From: a virus
Length of the DNA stretch: 25,737 nt
IMG/VR virus record: IMGVR_UViG_3300042397_000832
Coordinates: 1-25,737 of that record
Reading direction: 5' to 3' (one strand)
Positions 4,200 through 25,146 of this stretch are shown here, one piece after another (the stretch's first letter is position 1; each line of letters begins with the position of its first letter). Below the pieces are notes generated by a model, which saw only the letters and a list, made by a program, of their open reading frames with translations, was not told the origin of the DNA and did not search any database. The position numbers and the translations under genes are program-made.

Positions 4200-4272
4200 T
4201 GGTCCATAACTCAGTTGGCAGAGTGTTCGGCTGTTAACCGAAATGTCGGAGGTTCGAACCCTCCTGGACCAG
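4200..4272 (+). tRNA. tRNA-Asn (anticodon GTT)
   Basis: A complete cloverleaf of 73 nt: acceptor TGGTCCA/TGGACCA, D stem ACTC/GAGT, anticodon stem TTCGG/CCGAA around CTGTTAA, T stem GGAGG/CCTCC, discriminator G. CCA is not encoded. Confidence 0.96.
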
Positions 4273-4287
4273 CGATAGAAATATCAT

Positions 4288-4358
4288 GCGTATGTTGCAT
4301 AGTGGTAGTGCCCTATCCTTCCAAGTTAGAGGTGCAGGTTCGATTCCTGTCATACGCT
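4288..4358 (+). tRNA. tRNA-Gly (anticodon TCC)
   Basis: A 71-nt cloverleaf: acceptor GCGTATG/CATACGC, D stem GCAT/GTGC, anticodon loop CTTCCAA, T loop TTCGATT, discriminator T. The anticodon stem CTATC/GTTAG has one T-T mismatch. CCA is not encoded. Confidence 0.92.
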
Positions 4359-4361
4359 CGG

Positions 4362-4407
4362 ATGGCACCCTAGCATTACTCGTAAGATCAATTTCACTGG
4401 GTGTCAT
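4362..4407 (+). other. Stable hairpin between tRNA-Gly and tRNA-Asp
   Basis: ATGGCACCC (4362-4370) pairs with GGGTGTCAT (4399-4407), with one G-U pair; two more pairs (AG 4372-4373 with CT 4397-4398) form after a bulged T. The loop is about 23 nt. It is followed by TCTTT. It may be an RNA-processing structure of the polycistronic tRNA transcript, a weak terminator, or a decayed tRNA; it does not fold as a tRNA. Confidence 0.5.
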
Positions 4408-4412
4408 TCTTT

Positions 4413-4486
4413 GGCTTCGTAGTTCAGTTGGTTAGAACGCCACCCTGTCACGGTGGAGGTCGTGGGTTCAAGTCCCATCGGAGTCG
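4413..4486 (+). tRNA. tRNA-Asp (anticodon GTC)
   Basis: A 74-nt cloverleaf: acceptor GGCTTCG/CGGAGTC with two G-U pairs, D stem GTTC/GAAC, anticodon stem CCACC/GGTGG around CTGTCAC, T stem GTGGG/CCCAT, discriminator G. Confidence 0.95.
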
Positions 4487-4533
4487 CTAACGGTTGCCTA
4501 ACCGCTCTCAGGGGTATGAGATAAAATAGGTGT

Positions 4534-4606
4534 GCCACCTTAACTCAGTAGGTAGAGTGCCATACTTGTAATATGGATGTCAACAGTTCGATTCTGTTAG
4601 GTGGCT
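4534..4606 (+). tRNA. tRNA-Thr (anticodon TGT)
   Basis: A 73-nt cloverleaf: acceptor GCCACCT/AGGTGGC, D stem ACTC/GAGT, anticodon stem CCATA/TATGG around CTTGTAA, T stem AACAG/CTGTT, discriminator T. A TAAAAT at 4522-4527 just upstream could be a -10 element of its own, but no -35 box is seen. Confidence 0.95.
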
Positions 4607-4610
4607 CAAG

Positions 4611-8966: not shown

Positions 8967-9362
8967 ATGGAATATATTATTGGTTCGGTTATGACTATTG
9001 TTGTAGCCCTAGCAACCATGATCATTGTTAGGATAATTGTAAATAGTAGAAGCCATCCTTTGGTTATTCGTTATAGCCAAAGCAATGTATATGAAAGAAT
9101 TAAGCCAGCAATTCCATTTATGCCACCTCAGAAAAAAGAGTGCCAGTCTTCAAAGCACCAGTCCAGTCAAATGGTTAGAATAATTATGGTTGGCTCTAGG
9201 GCTTATTGGATTTCGGAGAACCAAGTTCTTGAAGCACCAGTATCGCCAGAAGGATTTGTTGATCAAACTATGGCAACGCCTATTGACACAATGGGTATGG
9301 ATAAGGTAGAATTAGAACAGATCGCTTTTATTGTTGAAAAATTGACGGAAGGAAAAAACTGA
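8967..9362 (+). CDS. Membrane-anchored phage protein of unknown function
   Basis: A 131-residue protein with one N-terminal membrane helix (about residues 4-27, rich in I/V/A/T), then a basic turn and a soluble part. Near the C-terminus it has DTMGMDKVELEQIAFIVEKL, a block I recall from uncharacterised phage proteins with the pattern DTMGMDKV. The start is ATG 8967 with a weak AGGG; TTG 8961 is the alternative. The stop overlaps the next ATG (TGATG). Function unknown. Confidence 0.72.
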   Translation: MEYIIGSVMTIVVALATMIIVRIIVNSRSHPLVIRYSQSNVYERIKPAIPFMPPQKKECQSSKHQSSQMVRIIMVGSRAYWISENQVLEAPVSPEGFVDQTMATPIDTMGMDKVELEQIAFIVEKLTEGKN

Positions 9363-9712
9363 TGATCGTAGCAATACAGGGAACCAAAACGTTTGATGAC
9401 TATCAGATATTTCTAAGAGCAATGGGAACAGCACTGCGTGATCTTCCAGAAGGAGACAAAGAGTTTATTGTCTTCTCTGCTGGACCAGTTAACATTAATC
9501 AATTTGGTATGGAGTTTATGAATGTTAACGAAAGAAGCATGAAGGGTTATGGAATCAAGACAAAGTTTGTTAAGGTTCCACCATCTTGGATTGATGAAAA
9601 CATTGATCAAATAAATTACTTTGCCTTCTTCTCTCAACCAAAAGAGACTTGGTCAAAGCAAGCACAAAACGCACACGACAAAGATGCAAATCTTTGGGTG
9701 TACAGATACTAA
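9362..9712 (+). CDS. Conserved phage protein, possible Rossmann/SLOG-like fold
   Basis: A 116-residue protein beginning MIVAIQGTKTFDDYQIF. The start resembles the first strand-loop of SLOG/DprA-type or YspA-like nucleotide-binding proteins, where G-[ST]-[RK]-[TS]-F-x-D is common. The rest (for example NYFAFFSQPKETWSKQA) fits the same fold loosely. It overlaps the membrane protein upstream. It could sense a nucleotide or a ligand; this is a weak fold-level guess. Confidence 0.65.
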   Translation: MIVAIQGTKTFDDYQIFLRAMGTALRDLPEGDKEFIVFSAGPVNINQFGMEFMNVNERSMKGYGIKTKFVKVPPSWIDENIDQINYFAFFSQPKETWSKQAQNAHDKDANLWVYRY

Positions 9713-9741
9713 TAATAATCTATACAAAATAGGAGAGTGAA

Positions 9742-9951
9742 ATGTTAATAACTTCACTTGAGAAGATGGAAGAAATTGTTAAGAATAATAACAATCTTTC
9801 ATGGGATGGCTGGACAGTCATCGAAAACAAGACCAATGAAAATGGTGCAATGTCTAAAGACGGTGCATACGTTGAAGGCAAATGGATCGTACAGAAACGT
9901 TACGAGGCAACTGCTACTGGTTGGGAGATTCCACACAAGTTAGTTGGTTGA
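9742..9951 (+). CDS. Small conserved phage protein (LSWDGW type)
   Basis: A 69-residue protein with AGGAG 7 nt upstream of the ATG. It contains NNNLSWDGWTVIE and a late WEIPHKLVG, a pattern I recall from many actinophage genomes without assigned function. Its stop region overlaps the start of the WhiB gene, so the two are coupled. Confidence 0.78.
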   Translation: MLITSLEKMEEIVKNNNNLSWDGWTVIENKTNENGAMSKDGAYVEGKWIVQKRYEATATGWEIPHKLVG

Positions 9952-10243
9952 AGTGGATAAGCATGACTGGAAAGACGATGCTGCCTGCCTCGGTATGGTA
10001 ACAAATACGTTCTTTGACGAATATGAAGAAAAGCCACAAGACAGAACATTTGTTGATTCAATCTGTGCAGAGTGCCCAGTAAGAAAACAATGTTTTGCTT
10101 CAGCCGTTACAAACAGGGCCTGGGGTGTCTGGGGTGGTATCTACTTTGAGAATGGAAAGATTTCAAGGGAATTCAACAAGCACCGCACTAAAGAGCAGTG
10201 GGCTGAAACCTGGAAGAGTTTAACTTTGGATAAAGGAAAATAA
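9944..10243 (+). CDS. WhiB-family iron-sulfur regulator
   Basis: A 99-residue protein with the four cluster cysteines C15, C41, C44 and C50 (C-x2-C-x5-C) and the family turn G-V-W-G-G at 61-65, followed by a basic C-terminal region. WhiB proteins bind a 4Fe-4S cluster and the primary sigma factor's region 4. They are found only in Actinobacteria and their phages, so this gene is a strong host marker. Phage copies such as WhiBTM4 can block host WhiB function. The start is TTG 9944 or GTG 9953; neither has a ribosome site, so translation depends on the upstream gene. Because it contacts sigma-region 4, it may shift host RNA polymerase toward the phage promoters. Confidence 0.9.
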   Translation: MVEVDKHDWKDDAACLGMVTNTFFDEYEEKPQDRTFVDSICAECPVRKQCFASAVTNRAWGVWGGIYFENGKISREFNKHRTKEQWAETWKSLTLDKGK

Positions 10244-13994: not shown

Positions 13995-14066
13995 GGTCCC
14001 ATAGTTTATCGGTTAGAACGTCGCCCTTTCACGGCGGTAGGAGGGGTTCGATTCCCCTTGGGACTG
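13995..14066 (+). tRNA. tRNA-Glu (anticodon TTC)
   Basis: A 72-nt cloverleaf: acceptor GGTCCCA/TGGGACT with one G-U pair, D stem GTTT/GAAC, anticodon stem TCGCC/GGCGG around CTTTCAC, T stem AGGGG/CCCCT, discriminator G. Confidence 0.95.
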
Positions 14067-14070
14067 CGAC

Positions 14071-14144
14071 ACACCTATAGTTCAGTTGGTTAGAATGCTT
14101 CTCTGATACGGAAGAGGTCCCTGGTTCAAATCCAGGTGGGTGTA
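14071..14144 (+). tRNA. tRNA-Ile (anticodon GAT), with encoded CCA
   Basis: A 74-nt cloverleaf: acceptor ACACCTA/TGGGTGT, D stem GTTC/GAAT, anticodon stem CTTCT/GGAAG around CTGATAC, T stem CCTGG/CCAGG, discriminator A. It is the only tRNA here with CCA directly encoded (14145-14147). Confidence 0.94.
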
Positions 14145-14148
14145 CCAA

Positions 14149-14220
14149 TCCCCTTTGGTGTAATTGGCAACACTACGGTTTTTGGTGCCGTCATTCTTAG
14201 TTCGAATCTAGGTGGGGGAG
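14149..14220 (+). tRNA. tRNA-Gln (anticodon TTG)
   Basis: A 72-nt cloverleaf: acceptor TCCCCTT/TGGGGGA with an imperfect last pair, D stem GTGT/ACAC, anticodon stem ACGGT/GCCGT around TTTTGGT, T stem CTTAG/CTAGG. It begins one base after the CCA of tRNA-Ile. Confidence 0.92.
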
Positions 14221-14233
14221 CGATAGGAGAGCA

Positions 14234-16324: not shown

Positions 16325-16397
16325 GCCTCTGTAACTCAGTGGATAGAGTAGGAGCCTTCTAATCTCTTAGTCGTAGGTTCGATTCCTACCAGGGGCA
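16325..16397 (+). tRNA. tRNA-Arg (anticodon TCT)
   Basis: A 73-nt cloverleaf: acceptor GCCTCTG/CAGGGGC with one G-U pair, D stem ACTC/GAGT, T stem GTAGG/CCTAC, loop TTCGATT. The anticodon stem GGAGC/TCTCT has a C-T mismatch next to the loop CTTCTAA, and a G-T pair. It is transcribed on the plus strand; the gene on the minus strand reads antisense into it. Confidence 0.9.
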
Positions 16398-17076
16398 CTT
16401 CATATCTGCTAGGCTCTGGAAACATATCAGCCAGCAGCGTTTCCTTTAGAAGATCAAATGACTTATCTTCGCTAGATACAAACGGATACTTACTTCCAAG
16501 ATAAGACAGGTCGCTCATAGAACTTGACTTGTGATATATTTTGACATCACGCATCTTTGCTGACGTTATGTTGTAAATATTACCATATATAGACCTAGCC
16601 TGAAATGGCAGATAAGCAATCTCCAAGAACTTTTTCTTGTTGATTATCATAGGAACATGAAGGTCATAGTCTAGTGGATCTTTTATGCCAGACTTTTTTA
16701 GGTATTCCAGAGTTTTCTTCAGTGAGATTACGTATCTAGATGTTGGATCTATCTGGCGGTACTTAGCAATCTTGTCAGACAAATAGCCACCATTATAATT
16801 CCTAAGTCTTCCAACAGGCCTGATCAAAAAGAAATCATCATTCATATAAACAAAGTTCTTAGATATGCTAGGGTGGTTGGCAGCAGCCGTTAGTGCCAAT
16901 CGAATATTGTTAAACTTGTTAGATGTATCTTCTACAGGTATAAAGTCTCCTATATACCAGTCTGGTTTATATCCCACAAGCCACACACGGCTCTCTGGCA
17001 GGTTTTTGACTACAGATCGTAATGAATACCGCAGTTCTTCGTTATCGCCTTTACGGCAGATGTAGACTATGTCCAT
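16336..17076 (-). CDS. Stealth-like glycosyltransferase (sugar-phosphate transferase), 3' end antisense to tRNA-Arg
   Basis: A 246-residue protein. It begins MDIVYICRKGDNEELRYSLR and has FVYMNDDFFLIRPVG (75-89), both like the CR1 and CR2 blocks of Stealth proteins, which transfer sugar-1-phosphates in capsule synthesis. The D79-D80 region would bind metal. LDYDLHVPMIINKKKF (about 143-158) fits CR3. The last 20 residues (227-246, with VGIEPTT) are the translation of antisense tRNA-Arg, so the true C-terminus was probably lost or replaced when the tRNA came to lie there. The tail is unlikely to be functional. Confidence 0.72.
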   Translation of the reverse strand: MDIVYICRKGDNEELRYSLRSVVKNLPESRVWLVGYKPDWYIGDFIPVEDTSNKFNNIRLALTAAANHPSISKNFVYMNDDFFLIRPVGRLRNYNGGYLSDKIAKYRQIDPTSRYVISLKKTLEYLKKSGIKDPLDYDLHVPMIINKKKFLEIAYLPFQARSIYGNIYNITSAKMRDVKIYHKSSSMSDLSYLGSKYPFVSSEDKSFDLLKETLLADMFPEPSRYEVPLVGIEPTTKRLEGSYSIH

Positions 17077-19450: not shown

Positions 19451-19933
19451 ATGCAAACTTTTCTACCATATAAATCATTTGTTAATACCGCACGAACTCT
19501 AGACAATAAGCGACTCAACAAGCAGATTCTAGAGTGCTACCAGATCCTTAAGGTTATCTCGTCAAACGACCCTCACGCTGGATGGCGTAACCATCCTGCT
19601 GTCAAGATGTGGCGTGGCTATGAGAAGTCCCTATGGAACTACACTATGTGTATGGTAGATGAAGCGGTTATCCGTGGCATCAGGACAGATGGGAATATGC
19701 GAAACCTATTAGCGTTACGTGAGAATGTAGGACACACATGGGGTTCTGGTGACCCTAAGTGGATGGATGACAAGACCATCATGGCACGTGTCACAACCAC
19801 ACACAAGGCTAATCTATATCGCAAAGACCCAGAGCAGTACTTCGACTTCGCTACCGCCGTCGAATCCAAAAACAATCTACCCTGCTGCGACAGATGCCAG
19901 TACTACTGGGTAACACACAAGGAGACCGTATGA
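19451..19933 (+). CDS. Pyrimidine-dimer DNA glycosylase family protein (endonuclease V type)
   Basis: A 160-residue protein with the Pyr_excise pattern: MQTFLPYKSFVNTARTLDNK (1-20), LNKQILECYQIL, then GWRNHPAVKMWRGYEKSLWNY (44-64). T4 DenV, the family founder, nicks DNA at cyclobutane dimers. The length fits (DenV is 138). The C-terminal CCDRCQYYW adds Cys residues that may be structural. It may repair UV damage, which matters for a surface-water virus. It is driven by the strongest promoter of the window. The family match is good; the activity is inferred. Confidence 0.83.
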   Translation: MQTFLPYKSFVNTARTLDNKRLNKQILECYQILKVISSNDPHAGWRNHPAVKMWRGYEKSLWNYTMCMVDEAVIRGIRTDGNMRNLLALRENVGHTWGSGDPKWMDDKTIMARVTTTHKANLYRKDPEQYFDFATAVESKNNLPCCDRCQYYWVTHKETV

Positions 19934-21180: not shown

Positions 21181-21281
21181 ATGTAGGACAGGCTATGGCC
21201 TATGTAGTAGCGGTTACCTATCTCGCTACGTTTGTGTACTTGATCTTCGTCTGGAACAAAGACGACAAGAACAAGCGTTAA
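21177..21281 (+). CDS. 34-residue single-helix membrane protein
   Basis: A short ORF starting at ATG 21177 (overlapping the TGA of the previous gene) with AGGGGAGAA upstream. It has one hydrophobic helix (residues 7-26) and the charged end NKDDKNKR. The good ribosome site and overlap support it as a real gene, for example a small regulator of a membrane protein. Confidence 0.6.
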   Translation: MNVGQAMAYVVAVTYLATFVYLIFVWNKDDKNKR

Positions 21282-21326
21282 AGTTTCGGGGAATTTAAAG
21301 TGTGCTTCGTAATCCCTAGTATAAGA

Positions 21327-21332
21327 TATAAT
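21327..21332 (+). promoter_or_regulatory. Leaderless -10 promoter
   Basis: TATAAT (21327-21332) followed by six bases and the ATG at 21339. TCGTAAT-CCCTAGTATA (21307-21323) lies just upstream, the same composite that recurs at 21973 in the non-coding region. Confidence 0.72.
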
Positions 21333-21338
21333 TAATAC

Positions 21339-21521
21339 ATGAAAGACAAATACAAGTATATGATATTTCCAGATAGAACCTATGTCCTGACATTTGAGTT
21401 TGGATCAGTAGAAGTTAGTGGTGAAGATATACACGCTATGTTTCGTAGAGGTGCACTTCTAGACACTATTCTTGATAACTTATCCACAGATGAAGACTAC
21501 CTTGACATAGGCGAATTATAG
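21339..21521 (+). CDS. Small acidic protein of unknown function (leaderless)
   Basis: A 60-residue protein, MKDKYKYMIFPDRTYVLTFE and then SVEVSGEDIHAMFRRGALLD and an acidic STDEDYLDIGEL end. Last plus-strand gene before the non-coding region. Its coding sequence contains one DnaA box (21480-21488). It might regulate this locus, since its promoter carries the TCGTAAT motif. Confidence 0.68.
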   Translation: MKDKYKYMIFPDRTYVLTFEFGSVEVSGEDIHAMFRRGALLDTILDNLSTDEDYLDIGEL

Positions 21522-21858
21522 GCATAGACCCCCCATTTTTACACAAAGTTATCCACAGTTTTGACTAAGTTATCCACAGATAAATGTTACTGAAAATGGA
21601 TCAAAGTGGAGGACAGTGGAGGAAATAATATTTGTATGGGTAATGGAGCACATTATTAACAGGCTTCGTAATCATTTTCCCACATAACCCCCTATCCAAA
21701 TACCCAAATACCCCCTATCACACATATCCCCATTTGTCAAGTATGCACAATATCCCCAATTTGTCAAGTATTTTTTGTATAATTTTTGGGGAAAAATGTG
21801 CCTCTATCGTAATGTTATTTATATAAACATATATCTTTTTTGCTAAAAGTTATCCACA
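21480..21858 (+). promoter_or_regulatory. Four DnaA boxes (TTATCCACA)
   Basis: Perfect TTATCCACA at 21480-21488, 21549-21557, 21570-21578 and 21850-21858, all on the same strand. The middle pair is 21 bp apart start to start, two helical turns. Four exact copies of a 9-mer in 380 bp, mostly non-coding, is far above chance. These are the consensus sites for bacterial DnaA, which points to host-dependent replication initiation. Confidence 0.75.
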
Positions 21859-22168
21859 ATTTGGGGATAATTATATAGGGATCGTAATGTATATTATACT
21901 AGGGGGAATTGGTATCAAAGGTTGTTTGCATACCCTGGCTTCGCCAGCCCTTCGGGGGTATTTAAAGAAGGATCGTAATATCCCTAGTATAGTATATACA
22001 AATACAACATAGGCATATATGTCTGATAAGTTATTTGGGGATATTTGTTATGTGATCGTAATAAAAAGTTCAGCGATTTTTTTGGAAAGGATCGTAATGT
22101 CTTTTTCAGGAGAAATTATCTTGGGATCGTAATGATATATTGGGGAAAAAATATTTGGGGATCGTAAT
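21666..22168 (+). repeat. TCGTAAT iteron array (8 copies)
   Basis: TCGTAAT starts at 21666, 21807, 21882, 21973, 22056, 22092, 22127 and 22162, mostly as GGGATCGTAAT. The last four are spaced 36, 35 and 35 bp. Another copy is at 21307 (promoter) and one at 25554. All eight are in the same orientation. They suggest binding sites for a phage protein. Confidence 0.78.
21930..21961 (+). other. Three-way junction / tandem hairpin
   Basis: A 32-nt block folds without unpaired bases at the junction: ATACC (21930-21934) with GGTAT (21957-21961), enclosing hairpin CTGGC-TTC-GCCAG (21935-21947) and CCC-TTC-GGG (21948-21956). It sits in the middle of the TCGTAAT repeats and is GC-rich in an AT-rich region. 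Confidence 0.62.
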
Positions 22169-22207
22169 CAATTTGTTATATTGGGGTATTGACATTTGGG
22201 GATAGGT

Positions 22208-22251: not shown

Positions 22252-22494
22252 TTACTCTGGCTTTGCTTGCTCAGAGCGAGGAACGAATGACGACATCCAA
22301 TACTCAATGTTTGGTATGAGTTGTGCGAGATAGTCGTGATAAGACGGAGTGTTCTCGTCTTCGTCATCTTCGTTAGCATTGTTGAAGTCATCTACAATGA
22401 ACTCGTATTGCTCGTCAGTAATTGGATTGCCGTTATTGAACTTGTCTTCAAGTTCTGCTTTGGTGTAGCCAATGTCTAGTCTTTGATTTTCCAT
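22252..22494 (-). CDS. Small acidic phage protein (leaderless)
   Basis: An 80-residue protein, MENQRLDIGYTKAELEDKFN, with a central IVDDFNNANEDDEDENTPSY. The promoter's GATAAT ends six bases before the ATG and no ribosome site is present. Very acidic, so a DNA-mimic or protein-binding role is possible, but nothing specific can be seen. Confidence 0.7.
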   Translation of the reverse strand: MENQRLDIGYTKAELEDKFNNGNPITDEQYEFIVDDFNNANEDDEDENTPSYHDYLAQLIPNIEYWMSSFVPRSEQAKPE

Positions 22495-24613: not shown

Positions 24614-24642
24614 ATTTTACAGGATTAGGCGGTAGGTGTCAA
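24614..24642 (-). promoter_or_regulatory. Sigma-70 promoter (minus)
   Basis: TTGACA (24642-24637), 17 bp, TAAAAT (24619-24614). The leader after it, AGATACATAACCCTAAGAGA, is also found in front of 25457. Confidence 0.86.
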
Positions 24643-25146
24643 GGCTTTCCAAGCATTTAGATAAGCCTCTTCATCAGGAAGTTCATCAAACTTGAAAGTG
24701 ATCGTGTCGCCATTGAACCAAGAGATGAACTCTCGTGTCTGATAGTTTAGAGTGTATACACCTTCGCAAAACAACTCATCCTTTTCGAATGAACTCTCGT
24801 CTGACAATGCAACATCTTCATTAGAATAAATAATTACCTTGAGAATGTCTACGCCTGTATCACGTGAAAGGCTTGGGTAGACAATGTGAAAGCCACTGAT
24901 TTCTTCACGAGCCTCTGCCCACTTAGTGACCTCTTGAAATCTAAAATACATCTGGTCAATCTCTGCTTGGTCAATGAAACGGCACTTAGCCAATGACAAA
25001 TGAATCTTGTCAAGCATACCGTGTTCAGAAATAAACGATAGCATACGTGTTCCTGAATAGGTTGGATAGCCATCCCATTGACCATATTGTGCTACTCGTG
25101 TGATGCCGTCTTTGTCAATTACTTTAGTGAGGTTGCGTGTTCCCAT
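24625..25146 (-). CDS. Conserved phage protein (MGTRNLT...YGQWDGYP type)
   Basis: A 173-residue protein starting MGTRNLTKVIDKDGITRVAQ, then YGQWDGYPTYSGTRMLSF. This N-terminus is shared by very many phage and some plasmid proteins of unknown role. YxQWDGYP is the hallmark. It starts with AAAGG upstream and has its own promoter. Acidic C-terminal DELPDEEAYLNAWKAL. No catalytic motif is known. Confidence 0.85.
   Translation of the reverse strand: MGTRNLTKVIDKDGITRVAQYGQWDGYPTYSGTRMLSFISEHGMLDKIHLSLAKCRFIDQAEIDQMYFRFQEVTKWAEAREEISGFHIVYPSLSRDTGVDILKVIIYSNEDVALSDESSFEKDELFCEGVYTLNYQTREFISWFNGDTITFKFDELPDEEAYLNAWKALTPTA

Follow-up and report, generated by a model that had tools for sequence, protein, structure and literature searches.

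The window, that is, the whole stretch of 25,737 nucleotides of viral DNA that was analysed, contains a gene-free gap of 730 bp between an open reading frame (ORF) ending at position 21521 on the plus strand and an ORF at 22252 to 22494 on the minus strand, and the gene blocks on either side converge on it. This gap and its immediate surroundings, hereafter the module, contain the following features:

21280 to 21338, plus strand: promoter-like block TTCGGGGAATTTAAAGTGTGCTTCGTAATCCCTAGTATAAGATATAATT with an outlying TCGTAAT at 21307; aligns in L005, L006, L008, L009, L037, L303 and others
21480 to 21488, plus strand: DnaA box 1, exact match to TTATCCACA, inside a 60-aa ORF (21339 to 21521)
21549 to 21557, plus strand: DnaA box 2, TTATCCACA, 97 bp 5' of the predicted cut (approximately −93 in Streptomyces phage relatives)
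21570 to 21578, plus strand: DnaA box 3, TTATCCACA, 76 bp 5' of the predicted cut (−69 to −71 in relatives)
21583 to 21592, plus strand: core anchor AATGTTACTG, present in 75 of 103 distinct candidate modules
21606 to 21623, plus strand: GTGGAGGACAGTGGAGGA, GTGGA repeats with a period of approximately 10 bp, 5' of the cut and kept in many relatives
21635 to 21650, no strand assigned: predicted terminase cut and left end of the direct terminal repeat (DTR), between 21645 and 21646, after TATGGGTAATG and before GAGCA; placed by homology to ten Boydwoodruffvirinae ends
21666 to 21672, plus strand: iteron 1, TCGTAAT, at +20 from the predicted cut
21802 to 21901, no strand assigned: least stable (AT-rich) 100 bp of the whole window in a nearest-neighbour stability scan
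21807, 21882 and 21973 (range 21807 to 21979), plus strand: iterons 2 to 4, exact TCGTAAT
21850 to 21858, plus strand: DnaA box 4, TTATCCACA, at +204 from the predicted cut, on the side of the repeat
22056, 22092, 22127 and 22162 (range 22056 to 22168), plus strand: iterons 5 to 8, TCGTAAT, spaced 36, 35 and 35 bp apart; extended form roughly GGGGAAAAATATTTGGGGATCGTAAT

The four exact DnaA boxes lie within 380 bp, all on the plus strand, and no further copy was found in the remainder of the 25.7-kb record. When the window was shuffled 300 times with its dinucleotides preserved, TTATCCACA occurred 0.30 times on average and at most 3 times. TCGTAAT was found 9 times in 1 kb compared to a shuffled maximum of 2, and 17 times in the window compared to a shuffled mean of 2.3. 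All iterons lie on the same strand; their spacing was irregular apart from the last three or four, and the distance of 33 to 37 bp between the last three is conserved. The module is 65% AT compared to 58%, and in relatives it falls in the 98th to 99.9th percentile for least stable DNA in the nearest-neighbour scan. These results bear out the anatomy described in the first-pass annotation, namely four perfect boxes, eight same-strand TCGTAAT with the last four at 36, 35 and 35 bp, a very AT-rich stretch and a gene-free region of 730 bp between converging gene blocks, with two amendments. A ninth same-strand TCGTAAT at 21307 lies outside the row of eight, and box 1 falls in the 60-aa ORF, which looks conserved in an alignment of close relatives. 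A third repeated motif of the module, CCCTAGTATA, was observed at 21982 (plus strand) and 21895 (minus strand), in the 21895 to 21991 region, and also at 21314 (plus strand); hairpin-like sequences with a TTCG loop lie at 21935 to 21960, between the elements at 21895 and 21982, and in phage Jay2Jay a motif of the same type appears as TCCCTATATACA. An ordinary promoter or terminator region was rejected, as both scans fell under the shuffled expectation.

No direct DNA similarity was found between the window and cultured phages. The window is part of the record of an uncultured virus. The homologues of the protein encoded at 9944 to 10243 occupy the WhiB position in cultured actinophages, and together with the gene order this points to an actinophage. 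Elsewhere in the window, a protein of the pyrimidine dimer DNA glycosylase family (PF03013, E 1.5e-19) is encoded at 19451 to 19933, and eight tRNA genes occur in three places (4200 to 4607, 13995 to 14221 and 16325 to 16398).

Relatives were gathered by scanning for three TCGTAAT at a spacing of 31 to 41 bp and with the protein encoded at 24625 to 25146 as query. The iteron pattern gave 98 raw IMG/VR matches compared to at least 120 for the reversed control pattern. Because the control was at least as frequent, the raw match count was rejected as evidence, and it is the conserved arrangement that carries the argument. The order that recurs in relatives is DnaA boxes followed by same-strand TCGTAAT, with the last three spaced 33 to 37 bp apart. 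Among ten near-complete aquatic relatives (records of 78 to 125 kb, one of them clearly circular with an 8.5-kb overlap), the module was the top window of the genome for same-strand TCGTAA[AT] in all ten, with 4 to 7 copies compared to 3 or fewer in shuffles, and an exact DnaA box was present within 2 kb of it in eight. The modules of G005 and G013 contained no DnaA boxes. Many GGTTTG/CAAACC motifs are spread throughout these two modules (G005:72700-74500 and G013:76200-78000; loci L325 and L337), and they look as if they might be the sites of another protein replacing the DnaA boxes.

The core anchor, in the form AAT[CG]TTACTG, recurs in 75 of the 103 distinct candidates, and the first TCGTAAT lies at +82 to +85 from it in most of them. 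The expectation that the boxes would be conserved in relatives held in part: of the 75 modules with the anchor, 51 show an exact DnaA box in the upstream 120 bp, and 23 contain none over that distance even when one mismatch is allowed. PolIII-alpha and a DTR protein, common to both, tie the lineage to the Streptomyces phages of the family Stanwilliamsviridae, and its size is evident from at least 599 IMG/VR contigs that encode a protein related to one of 181 aa from the replisome gene cluster. The module is a conserved element of one large lineage, comprising Stanwilliamsviridae phages of Streptomyces and many aquatic relatives. Two satellites, MiniFlayer and MulchRoom, do not carry it; primase genes are reported to be absent from both (PMC10690885). 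The MulchRoom left end (L399:1-40) has a GGGGTAT-type start, as in the BE-cluster phage LilMartin, with TCGTAAG at position 21, and its helper MulchMansion (L401:1-40) has TCGTAAG at 22, hinting that the two may share end recognition. In the literature found, a search that covered part of what is published, the module was not described for these phages and no function was assigned to it.

The DTR ends of Stanwilliamsviridae have been located from read pile-ups and a doubling of coverage (PMC5764925). The DTRs of the cultured relatives are 11 to 13 kb long. The left DTR end of ten Boydwoodruffvirinae records was found inside the module, directly after TGTAATN, and nine of the ten have an exact DnaA box at most 160 bp before the cut, mostly at approximately −93 and −70. 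TCGTAA repeats follow at +21 to +709 from the left end; several of these phages have no repeat at +21. In the window, TATGGGTAATG followed by GAGC, the boxes (−97 and −76) and the TCGTAAT repeats (+20 to +516) are placed as in Boydwoodruffvirinae, and the DTR of the window therefore probably starts at 21646. The ends of the Streptomyces cluster BE phages of this family, such as Jay2Jay, have homologous DnaA boxes, a cut after TGTAATN, TCGTAA repeats and the same flanking gene order. They differ from the window in having TCGTAAA or TCGTAAG in place of TCGTAAT, 50% GC and fewer repeats. At the right end, a motif G[GT]GCGCACTA or GTGTGCKCACTA is followed after approximately 30 bp by ATGTAT and CATACAT on the two sides of the end. 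This motif is shared by the two Streptomyces phage subfamilies and aquatic relatives, among them the close relative G024, and from its position the aquatic DTRs would be about 12 to 14.5 kb long; in the window's own species the DTR may perhaps be near 20 kb, if the gene order holds. By calculation, the distance from the module to the right end amounts to approximately 5 to 10% of genome length in either subfamily, regardless of how long the DTR is. On these findings, the region is a conserved junction element at the border of a long DTR, a repeat that the first-pass annotation had overlooked.

In Loccivirinae, the cut and the module lie apart. The cut region is GGGTAAT-like, the DTR measures 0.8 to 2.3 kb in these records, and neither iterons nor DnaA boxes were found at the cut sites. 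Instead, a TCGTAA pair 31 to 36 bp apart and DnaA boxes lie together in a gene-poor stretch 5 to 6 kb from the cut, and pairs at this spacing occur only one to three times per Loccivirinae genome. Since boxes and repeats stay together away from the cut, the module is more than a terminase site alone, and this arrangement led to the rejection of a pure packaging site as the sole explanation.

The relatives encode PolIII-alpha, a DnaB-like helicase, a DnaG-like primase, SSB, RecA and a resolvase. The search for a Rep protein proposed in the first-pass annotation came back empty: in 14 relatives neither a Rep_3 nor a DnaA domain turned up, and the neighbour genes of the module gave no family matches (Pfam, PHROGs) and no recognisable adjacent initiator, though an initiator from an unfamiliar family is conceivable. 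Two small conserved proteins, one of them of 181 aa, are encoded upstream of the helicase gene. The 181-aa protein (L310:17271-17816; phrog_9440), whose gene lies near that of DnaB, shows 83% mean column identity among 30 homologues, and its structural model, of medium confidence, gave weak matches to MerR-type DNA-binding folds (E at least 0.1). On the basis of this model, the protein is a candidate iteron binder and nothing more. The 102-aa protein beside DnaB gave a good fold model and no structural match.

GC skew had been put forward as a check on an origin. In the window, G001 and Jay2Jay, the cumulative skew does reach its maximum at the module (122114 in Jay2Jay, compared to the cut at 122094), which is the reverse of a normal bidirectional origin. 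The skew tracks gene orientation, however, and at third codon positions it is near zero; in Annadreamy and BillNye it is unchanged at the Loccivirinae module. As it is explained by gene orientation, the skew speaks neither for nor against an origin.

The most likely function of the module, to which we assign a probability of roughly 45%, is to start replication at the DTR junction as an iteron-type origin assisted by DnaA. Host DnaA would bind the boxes beside the edge of the repeat, and the same-strand TCGTAA iterons would be bound by a protein of the phage, possibly the MerR-like one of 181 aa. Between boxes and iterons the AT-rich stretch would open, and the phage DnaB-like helicase would be loaded onto the opened DNA. 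The terminase cut has the DnaA boxes on one side and the iterons on the other, so that a fork setting out from the module would also copy the long repeat, which needs to be duplicated before packaging. This reading is favoured by boxes and iterons above chance, by the module being the conserved top window, by its unstable DNA, by a phage replisome that comes without DnaA, and by the boxes and repeats that stay together in Loccivirinae. Against it stand the box-less modules, the lack of a Rep_3 protein or adjacent initiator, the satellites without the module, the anatomy shared with the injection stop signal (iss) of phage T5, and the direction of the forks, which would meet transcription head-on given the converging genes, as the first-pass annotation had pointed out. 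Its proposal of a DnaA-dependent iteron origin is upheld in part: the element is real and conserved, and the phages encode a replisome. No initiator was recognised, and origin function itself is read from sequence and stays tentative. DnaA boxes, same-strand iterons and an AT-rich stretch also make up P1 oriR, pSC101 and RK2 oriV. The module differs from these origins in its iterons, which are irregular save for the last three (33 to 37 bp compared to about 17 to 22 bp), and in having no adjoining Rep gene and a terminase cut inside it.

The anatomy shared with T5 (Demerecviridae) makes a stop in DNA entry a serious, if rather unlikely, rival. By analogy, the module would be the actinophage counterpart of T5 iss, in which entry would be halted by the repeats and the DNA bound by DnaA along the inner edge of the first-entering end, and the halt would last until the early proteins of the terminal segment had been made. 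T5 iss (9140 to 10149) is a gene-free convergent junction at the inner border (10219) of an early-gene DTR of approximately 10 kb, with same-strand TGCRAATCCGA repeats that straddle the border, one pair of them 35 bp apart, and an exact DnaA box at 9510. Repeats and DnaA boxes are both listed among the features of iss, the mechanism of which is called poorly understood (PMC13250531). T5 has exact DnaA boxes only in its DTR, two of them in a divergent early promoter region, and the aquatic phages likewise have a second cluster in the early region. The module's position near the right end, independent of DTR length, also fits an entry stop. On the other hand, the repeats differ in sequence (TGCRAATCCGA compared to TCGTAA[AT]) and the phages are unrelated, no homologue of T5 A1 or A2 was found in the relatives, and the DnaA box lies on the repeat side in T5 and mostly on the unique side in the actinophage module. 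We know of no two-step DNA entry in actinophages, which also counts against an entry stop. In Klebsiella phage IME260 the DnaA boxes are weak or absent. DnaA boxes at borders are not general for long DTRs either, as SPO1, another long-DTR phage, has none at its repeat borders.

A cos- or pac-like terminase recognition region, in which the small subunit would recognise TCGTAA and the DnaA boxes would have an architectural role next to the cut, is unlikely as an account of the whole module. The mapped left DTR end inside it, the boxes at approximately −93 and −70 in most of the ten Boydwoodruffvirinae records and the distance from core anchor to first iteron, much the same in most anchored modules, all agree with such a region, and so does the left end of MulchRoom (ATGGGGTAT..TTCGTAAG), which resembles those of BE phages, with the helper's TCGTAAG in the same place. 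It fits poorly with those Boydwoodruffvirinae that have no +21 repeat and with the Loccivirinae cuts, 5 to 6 kb from the boxes and iterons. For the core alone, the fixed spacing around the cut and the likeness of the MulchRoom and helper ends make a terminase role possible. The cos site of lambda (cosN and cosB) likewise combines a fixed cut with repeats that flank it on one side and a neighbouring site for a host protein. The module phages differ from lambda in having a long DTR and not cohesive ends, and in Loccivirinae the repeats and boxes are separable from the cut.

Control of transcription, with TCGTAA as an operator and with DnaA boxes that tie in early promoters or titrate host DnaA, appears improbable. 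Further DnaA-box clusters were observed in the early-gene part of the repeat (L012:1161-1181, L017:1049-1069, L018:2580-5242, L021:1646-2509 and L308:12206-12325), often as tandem pairs 12 to 22 bp apart, next to promoter-like sequences, for example ACGGCGTGTCG..TTGAC. Such tandem boxes beside promoter-like motifs in L012, L017, L018 and L021 speak for a role in transcription, as does a conserved CCCTAGTATAAGATATAAT block that adjoins the TCGTAAT at 21307; for the stretch from 21280 to 21338, we infer a promoter role. A site between converging genes is, however, a poor one for operators, and the fixed spacing of boxes to cut, the 4 to 9 iteron copies and a promoter scan under the shuffled expectation also argue against it.

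The parallel with T5 suggests convergent evolution. We regard it as doubtful, though conceivable from the analogy, that T5-like phages and actinophages independently evolved the same inner-border element, in which DnaA would mark the border and couple entry, the start of replication and end formation. If the module is an origin, a large and abundant aquatic lineage and the Streptomyces BE phages in culture would have a DnaA-linked start site at the very point at which their terminal repeat needs to be copied as well as cut, and the site to examine in cultured hosts would be predicted. Were it an entry stop instead, the little understood two-step entry of T5 would extend to phages of Gram-positive hosts. 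Either way, the question of why DnaA boxes and repeats occur at the borders of long DTRs in unrelated phages becomes testable.
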